A stretch of DNA of 64,000 nt from Bacilli bacterium (GTDB taxonomy: Bacteria > Bacillota_I > Bacilli_A > RF39 > UBA660): contig JAFXZI010000007.1 of assembly GCA_017541325.1 (NCBI GenBank), positions 1-64,000 of the forward strand, in the 5' to 3' direction. Shown piece after piece: positions 25,052 through 51,019 of the stretch. The position numbers and the translations under genes are program-made. The notes beneath the pieces are model-generated. The model was not told the DNA's origin and did no database searches. It saw nothing but the letters and a program-made list of their open reading frames with translations. Each line of letters opens with the position of its first letter. Within the stretch, counting starts at the first letter, position 1.

Positions 25052-26218
25052 ATGGCAAAGAAAAAGAAAAAAAGAAGAGTTAAAATAAAAAAAGTCCCTA
25101 TAATATTAGTTATTATTCTATTAATTATTATTGGATTATTTATACATTTTAATTCTAAAACATATCTATTTACAAAAGCTTATAATAAAAGTTTAAATAT
25201 GAAATTAGAATCATATAAAGAATCTAAAAGCAAATATTTTCCATATGCTGATGACAAATACTTATTAGAGACAAATACTATTTTTAATTATAATGAAGAA
25301 AAAGAAACAATTAATGGAAAGATTTATGTAGATGGATCTAATAATTATTTCGATTTATATATAAAACAAAATGAAGATGAAATGAAATTCTCGATTATTA
25401 ATAAAGATAATAAATCTTATTACAAAATAAAAGATGAATTCTATTATATAAATAATCCTGCTAGTGAAGAGATAAGTGAAAAAGAAGTTAAAGATATAAT
25501 ATCTTCATACTTTAAAAAGTACATAAAAAAAGGATCTATCAGTAAAAAGAAAGTAACAATTAATTATGATAAAGCTTATAAAACAAAAAAATATACTCTA
25601 AAACTTTCTAATAAAGATTTTTATAATTATTTATTAGATATATTAAATGATAAAAAGATTAGTAAAGCATTCGATACTAAAAAATATATTAAAGAAATAG
25701 AAGAATTAAAAAAGAAAGAAAAGACTATTAGAAATAGTTTTGAATATTCTATTTATCTTTATAAAGATACACCAATACTAGAAGAGTATGTATTTGGAAA
25801 AGATAAATCTAGTATTTCTATTTTTAATAAAGATGAATATAAACATATTAAATTTAAAAATAAAGATAGTAAGAAAGATTCTTATATTATAATTAAAAAT
25901 AATAAGATAGATTTATTTATCAATGATTATATGTATGGAAAAGGTACAATTACAGATAATACAATTGATATTACATTTACTGATTATGATAAAAAAGAAA
26001 TAGGAAATTTATCTTATAAAATAGAAAATGATAATAATTATTACAATATAATATTTAAGATGAATACAAATCTTGATAGTTTAAAATTAAATATTGATGT
26101 AAATAATAAAATAGATACAAGTAAAAGTATTCCATCACTAGATTTAAAAAATGCTAAAAGTATAACTAGTGCATCTAGTGAAGATTTGGAAATGTTTAAA
26201 GAATTGCTAACTAACTAA
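25052..26218 (+). CDS. Membrane-anchored extracellular protein of unknown function
   Basis: 388 aa. A Lys/Arg-rich cytoplasmic start (MAKKKKKRRVKIKK) precedes one membrane helix (~15-34). A long Lys/Asn/Asp/Tyr-rich outside domain follows that looks β-rich, with alternating hydrophobic strands such as YFDLYIKQNEDEMKFSIIN. No catalytic motif or Cys pattern is seen. The charge layout makes it an N-in, C-out single-pass protein. It has its own promoter and sits between the ribosomal operon and an SDR gene. I do not recognise the family; an extracellular substrate-binding or cell-envelope role is only a guess. Confidence 0.6.
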   Translation: MAKKKKKRRVKIKKVPIILVIILLIIIGLFIHFNSKTYLFTKAYNKSLNMKLESYKESKSKYFPYADDKYLLETNTIFNYNEEKETINGKIYVDGSNNYFDLYIKQNEDEMKFSIINKDNKSYYKIKDEFYYINNPASEEISEKEVKDIISSYFKKYIKKGSISKKKVTINYDKAYKTKKYTLKLSNKDFYNYLLDILNDKKISKAFDTKKYIKEIEELKKKEKTIRNSFEYSIYLYKDTPILEEYVFGKDKSSISIFNKDEYKHIKFKNKDSKKDSYIIIKNNKIDLFINDYMYGKGTITDNTIDITFTDYDKKEIGNLSYKIENDNNYYNIIFKMNTNLDSLKLNIDVNNKIDTSKSIPSLDLKNAKSITSASSEDLEMFKELLTN

Positions 26219-27083: not shown

Positions 27084-27890
27084 ATGGGTTCTATTTCTGT
27101 TGATAAGTTAAATTTTAGATATGATAAGAAATTAATATTGAATGATATTACGTTTAAAGTAAAAATTCCGTCTCTAATATCAGTAGTTGGTCCAAATAAT
27201 TGTGGTAAGACTACATTAATTAGATGTTTATGTGGTTCTGTGCCTACTGAGGATGTAATAACTATAGATGATACTTTATTATCTAAAAAAACAGTTAGAA
27301 AGTATTCTCGTAGTATTGGAGTAGTCTTTTCAGGAGATTTTAAACAATTCTTATTTAGTAAAGTGTTTGATGAAATTACTTTTCCATTATGTAATCTAAA
27401 TTATAGTAAGAAGAAAATTAAAGATCAAACTAGATATATTTCTAAATTATTGTTTATAGAAGATATACTAAATAAAAGTACAGGAGAACTAACTAAAGTA
27501 GAAAAAATTAAAGTATTAATCGCAACAAGTATTATTCATCATCCTAAAGTATTATTACTTGATGATATTTTAGTTGGATTAAGTAATAGTGAAAAAGAAA
27601 ATATATTATTACTTTTAAAAAGAGTAATTAGAGAAATGGAAATAATCGTTATAATGACCTCAAGTAGTTTAGAAGATGCAATTTATAGTGATGCTCTTCT
27701 AATATTAGATCAAGGTATAGTTAGATACAGTGGAAGAATCGCAGATATATTAGAACACGATAATGCTTTGACTAAAATGGGAATTGAAATTCCAGTAATG
27801 ATGGATATGTCATTGAAATTAAAATTTTATAATCTTTTAAATCAAGTAATATTAAATGAAGAAGAAATGGTTGATGCATTATGGGATTAG
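27084..27890 (+). CDS. EcfA1-like ABC ATPase with altered catalytic motifs
   Basis: Position and order (after rplQ, before truA) are those of EcfA1, an ATPase of the energy-coupling factor vitamin transporter. Walker A is intact (GPNNCGKTT, ~36-44). The Q-loop glutamine is replaced (VFSGDFKQF versus VFQNPDNQF). The LSGGQ signature is lost (STGELTKVEKIKV, ~131-143). Walker B is VLLLDDILVGL with Asp where the catalytic Glu should be, and the switch His is missing (IVIMTSSS). The fold is clearly ABC. It may bind ATP but should hydrolyse it poorly. It overlaps the next gene by 10 nt. Classified by motif reading and synteny; no search was possible. Confidence 0.7.
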   Translation: MGSISVDKLNFRYDKKLILNDITFKVKIPSLISVVGPNNCGKTTLIRCLCGSVPTEDVITIDDTLLSKKTVRKYSRSIGVVFSGDFKQFLFSKVFDEITFPLCNLNYSKKKIKDQTRYISKLLFIEDILNKSTGELTKVEKIKVLIATSIIHHPKVLLLDDILVGLSNSEKENILLLLKRVIREMEIIVIMTSSSLEDAIYSDALLILDQGIVRYSGRIADILEHDNALTKMGIEIPVMMDMSLKLKFYNLLNQVILNEEEMVDALWD

Positions 27891-28669
27891 TTGTAAGTAA
27901 TTTAAAATATAGAGACTTATTAAATGATGTAAGTTTCAAAATTGGAAAAAGTAGAATTTTAGGTATTTATGGAAATAATGCAAAATATATTTTAGATATA
28001 TTAAATGGTGATTTAAAAGATTATACAGGAATAGTTGAATATGAAAAATATGTAGTAGATGAGTTGTTTTATAAAAATAATTCAAGTGTATTTTTCTTAG
28101 TTAATAGTAATCCAGTTTTTTATACTAACAAAGTTGAAGAAGAGTTCAAATTTAATTTAACTTTAAGAAAATATAATGGTGATTTTGATAAAGCAATTAT
28201 AAAAGGATTAAGTTTACTTGGATTTGATAAGGAAATATTAAATAGAAAGATTAATACTTTATCAAGAAGTGAAAAGTATTTATTAAGTATTGCAATAGGA
28301 ATGTCATTTAATCCTGAAGTAATTATGTTTAAAGATACTTATGTAGGAATGGATCATAATAATAAAAAATTATTAACAACTCTTGTTAATAATTTAAAAG
28401 AAGATAAAAAAATAGTGATACTTGCTTCTAATGATACTAATTTATTATATCAATATACGGATGAAGTAATACTATTAGACGGAAATAATATATATAAAGT
28501 AGGACAAACTGATAAAATATTTACTTCTGTAGAACTAATGAAGGGAGATATTATACCAATGCCAAATATTACTAAAGTAACTTACCTAGCTAAATCTAAA
28601 AAGAATGTTAAACTATCTTATCATAAAGATGTAAGAGATATTATAAAGGATATATATAAGCATGTATAA
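27881..28669 (+). CDS. EcfA2-like degenerate ABC ATPase lacking Walker A
   Basis: Second ATPase-like protein of the cassette (262 aa). The P-loop position reads GIYGNNAKYILD (~residues 27-38), with no GK[S/T]. The signature is TLSRSEKYLLS, Walker B is VIMFKDTYVGMD (the first Asp is shifted or lost and the Glu is absent), and the switch region is ILASNDTN without His. Secondary-structure order still follows an ABC domain. It overlaps genes on both sides, so all three are translated together. Likely a pseudo-ATPase partner of the 27084 product. Confidence 0.65.
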   Translation: MGLVVSNLKYRDLLNDVSFKIGKSRILGIYGNNAKYILDILNGDLKDYTGIVEYEKYVVDELFYKNNSSVFFLVNSNPVFYTNKVEEEFKFNLTLRKYNGDFDKAIIKGLSLLGFDKEILNRKINTLSRSEKYLLSIAIGMSFNPEVIMFKDTYVGMDHNNKKLLTTLVNNLKEDKKIVILASNDTNLLYQYTDEVILLDGNNIYKVGQTDKIFTSVELMKGDIIPMPNITKVTYLAKSKKNVKLSYHKDVRDIIKDIYKHV

Positions 28670-29291
28670 GAGTTTAAGTTTTTATGGTAAGTTATTAAGT
28701 TTTATTTTATTAGTTGTTGCTATGGTGTTACTTAGAAATTATAATATTTTCCTACTTATATGTGGTATGATCTTTATTCTTAGTTTTTTAAATAGAAATA
28801 GATTTTATTTCTTAATATGTTTAGCTTTGTTTGTAGCAACCTATTTAATACCTTTTAATGAGTTATCATTCTTTGTATTAAAAATTATTTTAATTATTGT
28901 ATACGCATTAATTATTGAATCAAGTCTATTATCGCTAGAAAAAAGATATTTATATGATAAATTATTCTATCGTAATAGTACTACTAAACAATTAAAGAAA
29001 TGTATAAAGAGATATTATTATAAAGATGTAATAAATAATATAGAAAATGATAATATGTCTGTTCAAAAATATTTATATGAAAAAGATAAATATAAAACAT
29101 TCTTAAAAGAAGAAGCTAAAGCAAAAGCAGAAATAGAACTAGATAATTTATATTTAATTGATAAATTAAGATATGATAGATATTTCACTAGTAAAAAGAG
29201 TAAATTAACTTTTTCTTGGAATAATTATGATAATTTATATATTGCATTAAGTTTAATACTTTTTGTAATAGTTATCGTATTTGGTATGTAA
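28662..29291 (+). CDS. Membrane protein in the EcfT position
   Basis: 209 aa. Four hydrophobic segments lie in the first ~95 residues, a long charged helical stretch (~100-180) follows, and a final membrane helix ends the protein (~190-208). EcfT has a similar plan: N-terminal helices plus cytoplasmic coupling helices that touch the ATPases. It is shorter than typical EcfT (~265 aa), and I cannot find the Ala-Arg-Gly coupling motifs. Called EcfT-like by position only. It overlaps the upstream gene by 8 nt, and truA begins 1 nt after its stop. Confidence 0.5.
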   Translation: MYKSLSFYGKLLSFILLVVAMVLLRNYNIFLLICGMIFILSFLNRNRFYFLICLALFVATYLIPFNELSFFVLKIILIIVYALIIESSLLSLEKRYLYDKLFYRNSTTKQLKKCIKRYYYKDVINNIENDNMSVQKYLYEKDKYKTFLKEEAKAKAEIELDNLYLIDKLRYDRYFTSKKSKLTFSWNNYDNLYIALSLILFVIVIVFGM

Positions 29292-29292
29292 T

Positions 29293-30024
29293 ATGAGATA
29301 TAAAATTACTTTTTCATATGATGGTACAGCTTTTCACGGATATCAAAAACAAAATGAATATAGATCTGTAGAAGAGTGTTTAGAAAATGCTTTATATGAT
29401 ATAAACAATCATACATTTACTAGCATTACATCTTCTGGAAGAACTGATAAAGGAGTACATGCTAAAGGACAAGTTGCGAGTTTTAATTTAGATGTTAATA
29501 TAACTGAATATAAATTAAAATGTGCATTAAATAGTTTGCTTCCTGAAGATATTCATGTAATAAATGCTGAAGAAGTAGATGATGATTTTCATCCAAGATA
29601 TATGGCAAAAGAAAAAAAGTATGTATATTACTTAAATGTTGGTGAATATAATCCAATTGAAAGAAACTATATTTATCAATATAACAGAGGACTTGATATA
29701 GATAAAATGAAAGAAGGTATTAAATATTTCGTAGGAAAACATGATTTTCAATCATTTGTATCAAATGAATGTGAAAAGGATAGTTATGTAAGAGAAATAT
29801 TTGATGCTAGAATAGAAAAAGAAGATGATATAATTAAATTTATCTTTGTTGGAAATGGTTTTATGAAATATCAAGTTAGAAATATGGTAGGTACACTTGT
29901 AAAAGTAGGAAAAGGTAAATTAGAACCTATTGATATAGATTTAATCTTAAGAGGAGAAAAAGATAAAAATGAAGTTCTAACAATAAAACCAGAAGGACTT
30001 TATTTAGAAGAAGTAAAATACTAG
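29293..30024 (+). CDS. truA: tRNA pseudouridine synthase A
   Basis: TruA makes Ψ at positions 38-40 of tRNA anticodon stems. The catalytic Asp is in SSGRTDKGVHAKGQVASF. The RNMVGTLVKVGKGK segment near the C terminus is also typical. ATG 29293 (MRYKITFSYDGTAF) is the natural start; the in-frame TTG 29281 lies in the upstream gene. Located after the ECF-like cassette, as in other Firmicutes. Confidence 0.95.
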   Translation: MRYKITFSYDGTAFHGYQKQNEYRSVEECLENALYDINNHTFTSITSSGRTDKGVHAKGQVASFNLDVNITEYKLKCALNSLLPEDIHVINAEEVDDDFHPRYMAKEKKYVYYLNVGEYNPIERNYIYQYNRGLDIDKMKEGIKYFVGKHDFQSFVSNECEKDSYVREIFDARIEKEDDIIKFIFVGNGFMKYQVRNMVGTLVKVGKGKLEPIDIDLILRGEKDKNEVLTIKPEGLYLEEVKY

Positions 30025-36191: not shown

Positions 36192-37631
36192 ATGAATCAA
36201 GAGAAAATTGGAAAGTTTATTGCAAAATTAAGAAAAGAAAGAGGTCTAACACAAGAAGAATTAGCAGAACAATTAAATGTTACAAACAAATCTGTTTCTA
36301 ATTGGGAAAATGGTAAAAATATGCCAGACGTTTCTTTATTTAAAGAATTGTGTAGTATTTTAGGAATATCAGTTAATGAATTAATAAATGGAGAAAAAAT
36401 TAATATAAAAGATATTAATAAATATAATGAAACGACACTAAATATAATGAGTAATAATGAATTAAACAAAAAGAAATTTAATAAAAGAATAAAAGTATTA
36501 ATTGGTATTATTATTTTTATGTTGATACTAGTTATAATTCTATTAATATCACATAATAATATTTATCCTAAGTTTGATATATATTCTTTTATTATTAATC
36601 CTACTGATCCTGATAAAAAACAATTATTAAATAAAAAGTATAAATATAAATTAAATAATAAAGAATATGATATTTATTATTATGGTATAGATAATGCTCA
36701 ATTATGTGATGGTAAAGAAAATTGTTATTCCATTAAACAAGCTCTTGATTATAAACAAACGGATATAGATAGTATTAGGAAGCATTTTGAATCACTATAT
36801 CAATATCAATCAATTGAGATAAATAGATTATATGATGGTGGTACTACTATATATACTACAAGCGGATATCAAGTTATAATGTGTAATACAGCATCTGGAA
36901 ATAAAGATATTTATATTGGTACCCCTAATATGGTAGAAAATCTTTTTGGTATGTATTGTGGTCATTCTTTAAATACTGATAAAAGTTTTACTAGAACTTA
37001 TAAAATAATTAGTTCAAAAATTAGTAGTGATCCGGAATTTAACGAGATTGTTTTAGAAACTAGTAATAAAGAAAAGGGTAAAGTACTAATAAATAATTCA
37101 TATGATTTAGTTCCTGGAAAAACTTATTATTTCAGTTTTTATACTTTTGATATGTATAAAGATACTATTGAAAATATTTTTAATAATTCTATTCTTTTAA
37201 AAACTATTGAATTAGAAGAAGGACAAGATTTTATTAATGAAAAGATATATGTTAATGAAGTGGATGATAACGGATCAGAACTAAATGAAGCAAAATATGT
37301 TCGTATGGATATTGTTGATGGTACTTTAACAAGAACTGGAGCTACTATAAGAATTACTGATTATACAAAAGGTAAATATACATATGGTGAACCATATAGA
37401 ATTGATAAATATGAAAATAATAAATGGGTAAGACTTGATTGTAATGATTGTGCATTTAACTTACCAGCATATTATCCAGATATAAATGGACAATTAGAGT
37501 TTAAACTTGATTGGAAACATATGTATGGATCATTAAAAAAAGGAAAATATCGTATTGTAAAAAATGCTCTTGAAGGCGAAGGAGAAAATATAAAAACTTA
37601 TTACTTTTCAGTAGAGTTTACTATTGAATAA
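36192..37631 (+). CDS. Membrane-bound XRE-type regulator with large extracellular domain
   Basis: 479 aa. HTH at ~6-60 (GKFIAKLRKERGLTQEELAEQLNVTNKSVSNWENGKNMPD), a linker, one membrane helix (~100-121), then ~355 residues outside. The outside part holds several Cys (CDGKENC near 175, CNDC near 415) and β-rich repeats. Topology is N-in, C-out. Such proteins could sense an envelope or host signal and act on DNA directly, but no family for the outer domain is recognised. RBS GAGGG. Single gene. Confidence 0.7.
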   Translation: MNQEKIGKFIAKLRKERGLTQEELAEQLNVTNKSVSNWENGKNMPDVSLFKELCSILGISVNELINGEKINIKDINKYNETTLNIMSNNELNKKKFNKRIKVLIGIIIFMLILVIILLISHNNIYPKFDIYSFIINPTDPDKKQLLNKKYKYKLNNKEYDIYYYGIDNAQLCDGKENCYSIKQALDYKQTDIDSIRKHFESLYQYQSIEINRLYDGGTTIYTTSGYQVIMCNTASGNKDIYIGTPNMVENLFGMYCGHSLNTDKSFTRTYKIISSKISSDPEFNEIVLETSNKEKGKVLINNSYDLVPGKTYYFSFYTFDMYKDTIENIFNNSILLKTIELEEGQDFINEKIYVNEVDDNGSELNEAKYVRMDIVDGTLTRTGATIRITDYTKGKYTYGEPYRIDKYENNKWVRLDCNDCAFNLPAYYPDINGQLEFKLDWKHMYGSLKKGKYRIVKNALEGEGENIKTYYFSVEFTIE

Positions 37632-44590: not shown

Positions 44591-46465
44591 ATGAATAATG
44601 AAGAAAGAGTTTGTGCAATTTATTCAAGAGTATCTACTGAAGATCAAGCTCGCGAAGGATTTAGTCTTGGAGAACAAAAGAAAAGACTAGAAGATTATTG
44701 TAAGGTAATGAATTATAAAATCTATGGTTTTTATGAAGATGGTGGAATAAGTGCTAAAACAGGTAATCATAGACCAGAATTTGAACGAATGTTAGAAGAT
44801 GGTAAAAATGGATGTTTCAATACTGTACTTGCTCTAAAACTTGATAGAATTAGTCGTAGTGTATTTGATATGGAAAGAATAAATAAGTTTTTTGAAGAAA
44901 ACAATTTAACTTTAATTTGTTTATACGACCAATATGATACTTCAACAGCAAATGGAAGAATGATACAAAGAATTATGACTAGTGTTGCTCAAAATGAAAT
45001 TGAAAGAACTAGCGAGAGAACAAAAATAGGTTTAGATGGAGCAATAAAAGAAGGTCATATTCCTGGTAAAACTCCTGTAGGTTATTATCGTGATAATAAG
45101 AAACTAGCCGTAGATCCATTATCAAGTTTAGTAGTTGAAAGAGTGTTTAAATCATATGCAAGAGGTATATCACATTATAAAATTGCAGAACAACTTAATA
45201 ATGAAAAAGCATTGAATAAAACAAATTGGACAGACAATTCTATTAGAAGAATATTAGATAATCCAGTTTATAAAGGAGATTATTTAAGTAATAAAGGTAA
45301 GAAATCAGAAAAGTATTATGAAAATGTTTGCCCTGCTATTATTGATAAGGACTTATGGGAATATTGCCAAGACCAAGCACCAAGAAACTTAAAACATTAT
45401 CAAAGAAACAAAGTATATTTATTTCTTCAAAAACTATGTTGTCCTAAATGTGGAAGAACAATGGGTGGTAAGGCAACAAGAAAGAAAAATGGTAAAGTTT
45501 ATTACTATTATCATTGTATTTTTTGCAAAAAGAATATTGAAGAATCTATAATCGAAGAACAAATTATTAGAGACTTAAATAATATTTTTGAATACGATGC
45601 AATTGTTCATCAATACTATTTCCCTTTGATAAAAAGCAAACTAGGTATTAAAGAAAAAAATTATGAAAAAGAATTAAATAATTTAGAAAATAGAAAAAAT
45701 AAGATAGCAGATTCTTATATTGATGGAACATTTGATAAAGAAATATATATTAAAAAAAGAGATGAAATTGAAGAAGATATTAGACATATAAAGAGATTAA
45801 TGCTAGAAGAAAAACAAATAAGTAAAATGACTTTTGCAAGAGAAGATTTACTAGTAGATCGAGATTTAAAATATATTAATAAAATAGCTCTACCATTACT
45901 TTATGATAAGTTTGTTGATAATTGGAATGATACTTCAAGAGAAAAGAAGAACGAATTAGTAATGGATTATATAGATACTATTGAGCTATTTGAAAAAAAT
46001 TCAAATTATTATGTTAAAAAAATTAATTTTAGAAATTCATTTTATAATAAGTTTTCTGAATTATTTTGGGATGGATTTATTGATTATGATATTTCTAAAA
46101 GGAATGATAAAAATGCACCAACAGTTAGGTTTAGTGAATATATTCCGAAAGAAAAGGTTAAGGAACATATTAATAAATTAAGACATTTTTATACTGTAGA
46201 TATTTACCCAGGAGTATTTGATTTTGATAAAGGACTATTAGATATTCAAATGCCAAGTACAGTTGAATTAGTTAGGATTTCTCCACAAGAGAAAGTAAAA
46301 TATGAAAATGGTTATCATGGAATTAGTGAAGTTAATGCTATTGGAGTAGATATTTCTAAAAAAGAATTTATAGATTTAGATGAAGATTTATTTGATAAAA
46401 TGATAGAAAATATTGAAGAAATTATGGACGAAAATGATGAATTATATCTTATAGAAGACAAATAA
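44591..46465 (+). CDS. Large serine recombinase (integrase/excisionase)
   Basis: 624 aa. The resolvase domain starts VCAIYSRVSTEDQAREGFSL, with catalytic Ser at ~15 and its partner Arg at ~13, and continues with LDRISRSVFDMERI. The recombinase domain (~165-265) has GKTPVGYYRDN and NPVYKGDYL. A zinc ribbon (CPKCGR…CIFCKK, ~285-315) and a coiled-coil (~345-400) precede the divergent C-terminal part, which is rather acidic (…DENDELYLIEDK). It catalyses site-specific integration and excision of the element through Ser-DNA links. RBS AAGGAG. Similar in plan to TndX/Tn4451 recombinases. Confidence 0.93.
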   Translation: MNNEERVCAIYSRVSTEDQAREGFSLGEQKKRLEDYCKVMNYKIYGFYEDGGISAKTGNHRPEFERMLEDGKNGCFNTVLALKLDRISRSVFDMERINKFFEENNLTLICLYDQYDTSTANGRMIQRIMTSVAQNEIERTSERTKIGLDGAIKEGHIPGKTPVGYYRDNKKLAVDPLSSLVVERVFKSYARGISHYKIAEQLNNEKALNKTNWTDNSIRRILDNPVYKGDYLSNKGKKSEKYYENVCPAIIDKDLWEYCQDQAPRNLKHYQRNKVYLFLQKLCCPKCGRTMGGKATRKKNGKVYYYYHCIFCKKNIEESIIEEQIIRDLNNIFEYDAIVHQYYFPLIKSKLGIKEKNYEKELNNLENRKNKIADSYIDGTFDKEIYIKKRDEIEEDIRHIKRLMLEEKQISKMTFAREDLLVDRDLKYINKIALPLLYDKFVDNWNDTSREKKNELVMDYIDTIELFEKNSNYYVKKINFRNSFYNKFSELFWDGFIDYDISKRNDKNAPTVRFSEYIPKEKVKEHINKLRHFYTVDIYPGVFDFDKGLLDIQMPSTVELVRISPQEKVKYENGYHGISEVNAIGVDISKKEFIDLDEDLFDKMIENIEEIMDENDELYLIEDK

Positions 46466-48475: not shown

Positions 48476-51019
48476 ATGTTAGAATTAAAAAATGTTAATA
48501 AAATATATAAATCTAAAAATACTAGTAATACAGAAGCATTAAGAAATATTAATTTAAATTTTAATAAAGTCGGTCTTACATTTATTTTAGGAAAAAGTGG
48601 ATGTGGTAAAAGCACACTTTTAAATATTTTAGGTGGACTTGATACTCCAACTAGTGGAGAAATAATTTTTAAGGGGAAATCATTTAAAGATTTTAAAAGT
48701 AGTAATTATGACTCATATAGAAATACTTCAATAGGTTTCGTTTTTCAAGAATATAATCTTGTTGAAAAGTTTAATGTGTTTGATAATGTAGCATATGCTT
48801 TAAAACTTCAAAATAATAAAATTGATGAAAATGTTGTTTTAAATGTTTTAGAAGAAGTTGGCCTTAAAGATCTTGCTAAGAGAAAAGTAAATGAATTATC
48901 GGGTGGACAGAAACAGCGTGTAGCAATAGCAAGAGCTCTAGTTAAAAATCCAAGTATCATTTTAGCAGATGAACCAACAGGAAATTTGGATAGTGAAAGT
49001 TCTAAAATGATTTTTGAAATATTAAAGAAACTTTCTCTTGAAAGACTTGTTATTGTTGTTTCACACGACGAAGAAAGTGCTAACACTTATGGTGATAGAA
49101 TAATTTCATTACAAGATGGAGTTATTGTAAGTGACACTAATCCTCAGATTATTGATAATTATACAAATTATGAAATAAAGAAAAATCATTTACCATTTAA
49201 AGAAGCATTTAGATTTTCAATTAAGAATATATTTGGTCATAAATTAAAACTTATATTTTCAATTTTATTAATAGCATTTGCTCTATCTTTCTTTGGATTT
49301 ACTATTATGCAATATTACCTAAGAAGCAATAGTGAAATAGAGCGTATTGTAAATGAATTTGATGTTAATTATATTGATATAAATAAACTATCTACTAAGT
49401 ATGGAGTGTGTCCATTAGATGGATATTACAGAAATTGTTATGATACAGGGAAGTTTACTAATGATGAAGTGGAAACTCTTAGAAGTAAAGGAAATATTAA
49501 ACTTAATGAAAGATATAGATTTCAAGTAAATGGTGCACTTATTAATTTAGTGGATTTAGATGAAGAAAAATATACAAAATTAGGCTATTACTATTATAAT
49601 TATGAGTACCCTAGTACATTTACAGAACTAAAAAAAGAACAATTTAATTTCAAATTAATTGGTAGTGTTCCACAAAAATTTAATGAAATAGTAATTATAA
49701 AACCAGTTGCAGATTATATAATTAACTATGGAGCATACTTATATAATAGTGAAGATATTTATAAACCAAATAGTTATCAAGAGCTTATTAATGATAAAAT
49801 AGAAATTAAGTTTGGAAGTAGTAGTGTTATAATATCAGGAATAATAGATGATGATTTAAGTGAGTTTGAATCATTAAAAAATATTTATGACTCTGATTTA
49901 AGAAGTGATAAAGTAGCGCTCGTCGATAAAAGATTAATAGAAAAGTATAGATATAAGTATCCAGTATATTTTTATACATTAGAAGGATTTAAAGAAAAAA
50001 TTGAATTAAAAGAAAATGATTCTAGATATTTTAAATTTAGTGAGTCTAGTCCTGAAGATATTTTATATACAGTGAAACTATTTGAAAGTGGAAAAGTATA
50101 TACAAAAGATGGACTTGTAGAAATAAATAAATTAGATAATGGAATTATTGTTCCTGTTAGTTATCTTGATAAAATATCAAATGGTGATTTTTCTAAAAGT
50201 ATGAATGACTATATCATAAATGGAAAAGATCAAGATCCATCAAAGACAAGTGATGAGTATAGAGAAGAATTTATAACAAAATATATAAATGAAAATAATA
50301 TTACTGATAAAATGGTATCATTTAGTCTTTTTAAAATATATAATAATGATGAAGGAAATAATAATGCTAAAACATTACATTTAAGAATTCAAGGAATTAC
50401 TTTAGATGATGAAAATTATTATACAACTAAAGAAATATTAGAAGAAAATAGTGATGACAAGTATAGTATAGATTTATATGTATTAACTAAAGATATAGAT
50501 AACTATAATGATTTCTTTAATGATTATCCAATTGATGGAGAAAAATATATATCTAATACTGATTTTATATATTATATTGCTGAACATGAATATTCTATGA
50601 AAGTAGCATCTAAATACATTTTTATAATTAGTTTGTTTTTCTCATTATTTGCAATACTTTTATTATTTAATTTTATTGGTTTATCAATTACAGATAATAA
50701 AAAAGAAATAGGAGTATTAAGGGCTTTGGGTACTACTAAAAAAGATGTATCAAAAATATATTCTATACAAGGTTTATTAATAGGTTTTGTTTCATATATA
50801 TTATCAATATTGTTTGTAATTACTTATGCAAAAGGAGAAAATAATATTTTAATTGGAGGAAGTTTAAAAAAGATTTTTAATGTTGAACTATTTGGAATCA
50901 GTTTTATGCCACTTTTGGTTATGTTTATCTTCTTTGTCGTAGTAGTCTTGTTATCAAGTGTTAGTGTATCACTTCGTATAACAAAAATGAAACCAATTGA
51001 TGCGATAAATAATAAATAA
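48476..51019 (+). CDS. MacB-like ABC exporter, ATPase fused to FtsX-type permease
   Basis: 847 aa. The ATPase (~1-220) has Walker A GKSGCGKST, signature LSGGQKQRVAIARAL, Walker B ILADEPTGNLD and switch His SHDEES. One membrane helix (~258-280), a ~440-residue outside domain, and three membrane helices at the end (~722-842) follow, with FtsX-type LGTTKKDVSKIYSIQG between them. This plan exports peptides, antibiotics or lipoproteins. It follows the mobile element and has its own leader with a terminator, which fits induced resistance. Its stop codon lies in the repeat end of a MITE. Confidence 0.88.
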   Translation: MLELKNVNKIYKSKNTSNTEALRNINLNFNKVGLTFILGKSGCGKSTLLNILGGLDTPTSGEIIFKGKSFKDFKSSNYDSYRNTSIGFVFQEYNLVEKFNVFDNVAYALKLQNNKIDENVVLNVLEEVGLKDLAKRKVNELSGGQKQRVAIARALVKNPSIILADEPTGNLDSESSKMIFEILKKLSLERLVIVVSHDEESANTYGDRIISLQDGVIVSDTNPQIIDNYTNYEIKKNHLPFKEAFRFSIKNIFGHKLKLIFSILLIAFALSFFGFTIMQYYLRSNSEIERIVNEFDVNYIDINKLSTKYGVCPLDGYYRNCYDTGKFTNDEVETLRSKGNIKLNERYRFQVNGALINLVDLDEEKYTKLGYYYYNYEYPSTFTELKKEQFNFKLIGSVPQKFNEIVIIKPVADYIINYGAYLYNSEDIYKPNSYQELINDKIEIKFGSSSVIISGIIDDDLSEFESLKNIYDSDLRSDKVALVDKRLIEKYRYKYPVYFYTLEGFKEKIELKENDSRYFKFSESSPEDILYTVKLFESGKVYTKDGLVEINKLDNGIIVPVSYLDKISNGDFSKSMNDYIINGKDQDPSKTSDEYREEFITKYINENNITDKMVSFSLFKIYNNDEGNNNAKTLHLRIQGITLDDENYYTTKEILEENSDDKYSIDLYVLTKDIDNYNDFFNDYPIDGEKYISNTDFIYYIAEHEYSMKVASKYIFIISLFFSLFAILLLFNFIGLSITDNKKEIGVLRALGTTKKDVSKIYSIQGLLIGFVSYILSILFVITYAKGENNILIGGSLKKIFNVELFGISFMPLLVMFIFFVVVVLLSSVSVSLRITKMKPIDAINNK

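Follow-up and report, generated by a model that had tools for sequence, protein, structure and literature searches.

At the ancestral ecfA1-ecfA2-ecfT place before truA, the window (the whole stretch of 64,000 nt that was analysed) carries three overlapping genes whose ATPase motifs are eroded, and the question raised by this locus is whether such genes still encode a transporter, are the relic of one, or have been kept for another function. We call the three genes and their products A1, A2 and T.

Locus and ancestry of the three proteins

In the window, the ribosomal operon is followed by an uncharacterised gene, an SDR gene, the A1-A2-T trio (27084-29291) and truA. The arrangement described in the first-pass annotation was confirmed: on the forward strand, as for all features of the trio given below, A1 (27084..27890, 268 aa) and A2 (27881..28669, 262 aa) overlap by 10 nt, A2 and T (28662..29291, 209 aa) overlap by 8 nt, and the ATG of truA is at 29293. 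The genome that contains the window is 1.25 Mb in size and 97% complete. The trio is open in seven of the nine same-genus genomes, and the remaining two have assembly gaps at the locus; an apparent loss of A2 and T in G006 and G008 of this genus was rejected as an assembly gap, truA being absent or cut at the contig end.

Several other genes of the window are recorded here as separate observations. The 388-aa protein encoded between rplQ and the SDR gene (25052-26218) has one apparent N-terminal membrane segment and gave no significant Pfam match. A single frame at 36192-37631 combines an N-terminal HTH_3 domain with a C-terminal Big_14 Ig-like domain and is possibly a membrane-anchored regulator; a large serine recombinase with Resolvase and Recombinase domains (44591-46465) suggests a mobile element nearby; and a protein of 847 aa (48476-51019) has an ABC ATPase and an FtsX permease in a single chain.

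The best NCBIfam match of A1 was ECF_ATPase_1 (TIGR04520; E 2.6e-40) and that of A2 was ECF_ATPase_2 (TIGR04521; E 1.7e-19), each well under the curated cut-off. The AlphaFold model of A2 (pLDDT 92) is folded as an ECF ATPase, C-terminal domain included, and its top structural matches were all ECF ATPases, with TM of about 0.8-0.9. The two proteins are thus placed among the ECF ATPases by these family matches and A2 also by its fold, and, judging from sequence, A1 and A2 are descendants of EcfA1 and EcfA2.

The motif losses formerly noted in A1 were verified. The Walker A motif GPNNCGKT (27189..27212) is kept, and so is Asp160 of the Walker B motif VLLLDDILVGLS (27549..27584), in which Asp161 stands for the catalytic Glu (LLLDD) and the D-loop Asp is absent; the degenerate signature LTKVEK occupies the LSGGQ position (27489..27506), and Ser is found at both the Q-loop and the switch positions in place of Gln and His. 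A2 lacks the Walker A Lys, as had been claimed: its P-loop is gone, GIYGNNAKY being found at this position (27962..27988), where the phosphate loop of the model is shrunk to a three-residue turn. What the first-pass annotation had missed is that A2 keeps the signature LSRSEK (28259..28276) and, within a degenerate Walker B motif VIMFKDTYVGMD (28319..28354), the conserved D-loop Asp158, and the motif losses in A1 and A2 are therefore not random.

T had been regarded as a membrane protein shorter than EcfT, and this view agrees with its length (209 aa vs about 240-266 aa in canonical relatives) and with its AlphaFold model (pLDDT 80), which shows four membrane helices plus a further one at the terminus, together with two long helices in the cytoplasm. 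No Pfam or NCBIfam model matched T, the PF02361 model being silent, and a Pfam profile search of the window's genome found no PF02361 EcfT. A T profile built from the genus only gave no clear hhalign match to the canonical EcfT of family members (prob 11%), and a profile built from the genus and three intermediates gave a full-length alignment (E 5e-6); T of the intermediate genome G050 was matched by both T profiles. The best Foldseek matches of the model were EcfT chains (prob 0.60-0.93, E 0.2-0.9), and VIA-align gave Z of 7.8-9.6 over 176-190 residues against group II EcfT chains; because helical bundles reach such Z from arrangement alone, it is the profile comparison that carries the assignment. 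On this comparison and the model, T is homologous to EcfT / CbiQ (PF02361), and the EcfA1-EcfA2-EcfT ancestry proposed for the trio is upheld. As for the X-Arg-X coupling motifs of EcfT, the second is present in T as DNLYLIDKLRYDRYF (29142..29186), with Arg170 invariant in the genus and the motif corresponding to MEVRLYN of canonical EcfT, and the first is not recognisable.

Ordered erosion in related genomes

The A1-A2 pair was found in 52 of the 58 family genomes (G000-G057), nearly always directly upstream of T or truA; A1 of G055 lies off the contig, the locus was unreadable in G006, G008 and G041, and in G042 truA is present but A1 and A2 are missing. In G035 and G026, the SDR gene is joined straight to truA (L068 5127-5129; L077 5005-5076), showing a clean loss of A1-A2-T. 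When 84,980 species genomes were searched, 76 further loci were obtained, most of them from additional species and eight from genomes already among the earlier set; this search began from the A2 tail and is therefore biased toward the eroded clade. The A1 and A2 frames are open at all 76 loci, the 10-nt A1/A2 overlap is found at nearly all, and truA is close downstream in all but one. Taken with the open trio in the same-genus genomes, such a pattern lies far outside what chance would produce. The majority of these loci, like most relatives, are without T, and some have T of 185-217 aa. When a relocated T was sought elsewhere in the T-less genomes with a 21-row profile, none was found, a weak partial match (E 7.6e-4) occurring inside a 626-aa frame of G020. 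In the truA tree, Candidatus Faecimonas gallistercoris falls among the relatives with A1-A2; Faecimonas, which is T-less, is listed by GTDB under order RF39, with CAG-611 as its family according to one release (PMC8035907) and UBA660 according to a later study (PMC12661832). The window's genome, and with it the 119 related species that have both proteins, therefore probably belongs to GTDB RF39/UBA660.

A motif census of these 119 species showed that the Walker A motif of A2 is kept in 20 and lost in 99. Among the latter, Walker A of A1 is present in 96 and its Walker B Asp in 97, and A2 has the signature S..[EQ] in 93, as LSxxE, and the D-loop Asp in 85; A1 has LSxG in 2 and the catalytic Glu in 4 (otherwise mostly Asp or Asn), and the switch His is almost absent from both proteins. 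In an ABC dimer, each ATP is sandwiched between the Walker A motif of one subunit and its partner's signature. One composite site has therefore been kept and the other destroyed, because A1 Walker A and the A2 signature persist and A2 Walker A and the A1 signature are lost; with the latter two both gone, the pair is not an ABC heterodimer having one degenerate site and one catalytic site.

The C-terminal dimerisation tails of both proteins are retained as well. The best-conserved part of A1 is now its C-terminal quarter, and the C-terminal domain tail EIPVMMDMSLKLKFYNLL...EEEMVDALWD (27786..27887) is among the best-conserved parts in the eroded species, in which the invariant columns of A1 are G41, K42, D160, P237, L246, Y249 and W267. 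In canonical relatives with both Walker A motifs (e.g., L014, L015 and L020), including ones that bear the S-component EetB, A1 has Glu, Asp, Asn or Ser at the Q-loop position instead of Gln, and A1 was therefore asymmetric already before the erosion.

On the truA tree, which is built from one gene and has many weakly supported branches, seven changes were counted for A2 Walker A vs three for A1 Walker A, and the same outcome of erosion therefore arose several times. A1 Walker A has been lost too in G015, G053 and G028, where the C-terminal halves are still present, and the A2 signature has been lost in a few eroded genomes, so that the site is not essential everywhere. The erosion pattern, which was described in none of the papers searched, is family-wide and of several independent origins, and is not a quirk of one genome. 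The interpretation of the module in the first-pass annotation stands as to ancestry, maintenance and loss of hydrolysis residues, and is extended here by the structured course of the erosion throughout the family.

Substrate subunits, selection and alternative explanations

A genome-wide search for canonical EcfT and S-components had been recommended as a check. Like that for PF02361, the search for five S-component families, i.e., PF12822, PF07155, BioY (PF02632), ThiT (PF09515) and EetB (PF07456), was negative in the window's genome, and EetB is also absent from all same-genus genomes. PF12822, PF07155, BioY and ThiT were found nowhere above the cut-off in eroded genomes and are nearly absent family-wide, and the sole S-like family found in the family genomes was PF07456 (EetB). 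Weak PF12822 matches in G009, G011 and G023 were rejected as vitamin S-components, because they represent the PF07456 EetB-like protein; reading of the sequences located EetB in a cluster with ApbE, NusG_II and FMN-binding genes in these three genomes. In Listeria, EetB is an FAD-binding ECF-S protein required for flavin export (PMC9973259). EetB is present in 12 of the 58 family genomes, all of which are PF02361-positive, and in none of the 40 PF02361-negative ones (Fisher p 2e-8, with the genomes only partly independent by descent), and was above the cut-off in none of 50 further eroded species. A phylogenetic test of the EetB-EcfT link had only two well-supported independent pairs and low power, and the phylogenetic link is suggestive; EetB loss is the likely cause of hydrolysis loss. 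As a point against the reading preferred below, G031 and G052 (L021 and L030) keep canonical ATPase motifs and EcfT with no S-component of the five families found, and may have an undiscovered S-component.

By sequence, A1 and A2 contain no hydrolysis-competent ATP site, i.e., Walker A and Walker B with Glu, LSGGQ and switch His, and as no S-component of the five families was found either, the locus does not qualify as a working group II ECF transporter. The main rival to the reading that we prefer is a still-working ECF transporter, in which the one site left hydrolyses slowly and the S-component is too divergent for the Pfam models: T is kept under selection in the window's genus, S-components are highly divergent and our search covered five families of them, and in other ABC proteins a Walker B Asp can permit hydrolysis at a slow rate (PMC7756269), which counts against a non-hydrolysing pair. 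This explanation is, however, difficult to reconcile with the missing switch His and canonical signature, with the absence of the five S-component families, and with the many relatives, the greater part, that have the same A1-A2 pattern and no T at the locus or elsewhere; in addition, Glu-to-Gln replacement in the ATPases of a published ECF module abolished hydrolysis and transport (PMC10368641). We regard it as unlikely.

Between the two closest congeners, Nei-Gojobori dN/dS was 0.25 for A1, 0.32 for A2, 0.19 for T and 0.29 for truA, with a range of 0.19-0.33 within the genus; for 40 pairs of close species among the relatives, T being absent from nearly all, the A1 and A2 values lay mostly at 0.04-0.28, reached as much as 0.48 in a few, and were usually somewhat higher than those of truA, synonymous sites being partly saturated in these estimates. 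Because the A1 and A2 values are far under 1, neutral drift is excluded. A1, A2 and T are maintained by purifying selection and are not decaying, just as had been claimed, and the open frames in relatives agree with this. A slowly eroding relic of an ECF transporter, functionless today, would fit the graded erosion across the family, which in G015 has left 149 and 183 aa, and the clean gene loss seen in G035 and G026; but dN/dS well under 1 and, in the nearest genus pair, close to that of truA, together with the frames open at every one of the further loci, speaks against it, and so does the identical composite site kept in several separately eroded lineages, because a functionless pair would not hold matched residues on two proteins. 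We therefore consider a relic to be quite improbable.

The C-terminal tail of A2, ...SYHKDVRDIIKDIYKHV (28559..28666), has pN of 0.04 and pS of 0.35 at codons 241-263 within the genus, and the overlapping T start may therefore account for part of the tail constraint, not for all of it. A further alternative, that what truA needs from the frames is translational coupling or a translation signal within them and that the proteins do not matter, would suit the constant A1/A2 overlap, the tight truA spacing and this lower synonymous divergence, but is very improbable, since conservation is residue-specific (the nucleotide site and both tails) and far from start signals, and the direct joining of the SDR gene to truA in G035 and G026 indicates that A1-A2-T is not kept merely for truA translation.

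Proposed heterodimer and comparison with known systems

The reading that we prefer, with a probability of about 0.6, is that A1-A2 is a remnant of a group II ECF motor that has turned into a non-hydrolysing, ATP-clamped heterodimer; it is drawn from sequence and from analogy with two characterised cases. At the degenerate sites of heterodimeric exporters, a Walker B Asp is found together with ATP that is held tightly, as glue (PMC7756269), and in the 2EQ ECF module, in which both Walker B Glu are changed to Gln, ATP is bound and the ATPases close with zero hydrolysis (PMC10368641). The surviving A1/A2 site has the sequence of a glue site, from which we infer an ATP-clamped heterodimer: one ATP would be held at the A1/A2 interface as glue and not as fuel, and the pair would be mostly closed, as in the engineered Walker B Glu-to-Gln modules. 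In the window's genus, the mini-EcfT with one coupling-helix Arg motif would anchor the pair at the membrane, and in most relatives the pair would be soluble. Of the earlier proposal of a repurposed non-hydrolysing membrane complex or regulator, the hydrolysis-dead character is borne out by sequence, and the membrane complex does not hold as a general rule, most relatives being T-less.

As for the history, vitamin-import S-components may have been lost early in the family, after which the motor core would have been dedicated to the FAD exporter EetB; EetB would then have been lost, hydrolysis next, and T last in most lines. The pair may at present be a non-transport scaffold or an ATP-dependent switch for a putative partner. 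A broader proposal, for which we hold tentative and somewhat less than even expectations, is that transporter-free, ATP-clamped ABC pseudo-ATPase heterodimers, forming a class of their own derived from EcfA1-EcfA2, serve as a scaffold or energy-state switch, cytosolic in general and membrane-tethered in the window's genus, across a major uncultured lineage of gut Bacilli. Approximately a hundred species in which catalysis has been lost repeatedly, yet one ATP site has been kept, provide a test of the long-standing question of what ATP binding alone does in an ABC dimer, and their comparison may outline an evolutionary route from a transporter to a possible regulator, along which the last substrate subunit, then hydrolysis and then the membrane subunit are lost. 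The presence of ecfA genes in gut metagenomes is no proof of vitamin uptake.

In the literature searched, we found no description of degenerate or orphan ECF motors of the A1-A2 type, and as far as this literature shows, the locus is an undescribed variant of the group II ECF systems, as had been suggested. With the group II module EcfA-EcfA'-EcfT (Lactobacillus ECF-FolT/PanT; PDB 7NNU, 5D3M, 8BMS), the trio shares the gene order, the three subunit folds as far as predicted, the EcfA C-terminal domain and the place before truA, whereas here the hydrolysis-competent site is absent, the A2 P-loop is deleted, T is shortened with one recognisable Arg coupling motif, and the S-component search gave none. 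The FAD export by EetB-FmnA-EcfA-EcfA' of Listeria monocytogenes (PMC9973259) was probably the ancestral job of the motor in this family, and canonical family members co-occur with EetB, in contrast to the members whose motor has lost canonical EcfT, in all of which EetB is missing. TM287/288 and TmrAB (PMC7756269) resemble the pair in the Walker B Asp site that holds ATP as glue and in the partner D-loop Asp; their second site is catalytic, whereas A1 and A2 retain the degenerate-type site only. A precedent for enzyme-bound ABC ATPase dimers without a membrane transporter is given by PhnK/PhnL of C-P lyase (PDB 7Z16) and by the SufC-type SMS complex (9H78), whereas any enzyme partner of A1-A2 would be putative; these precedents belong to different families, and at least PhnK has the catalytic Glu, which was mutated in 7Z16.
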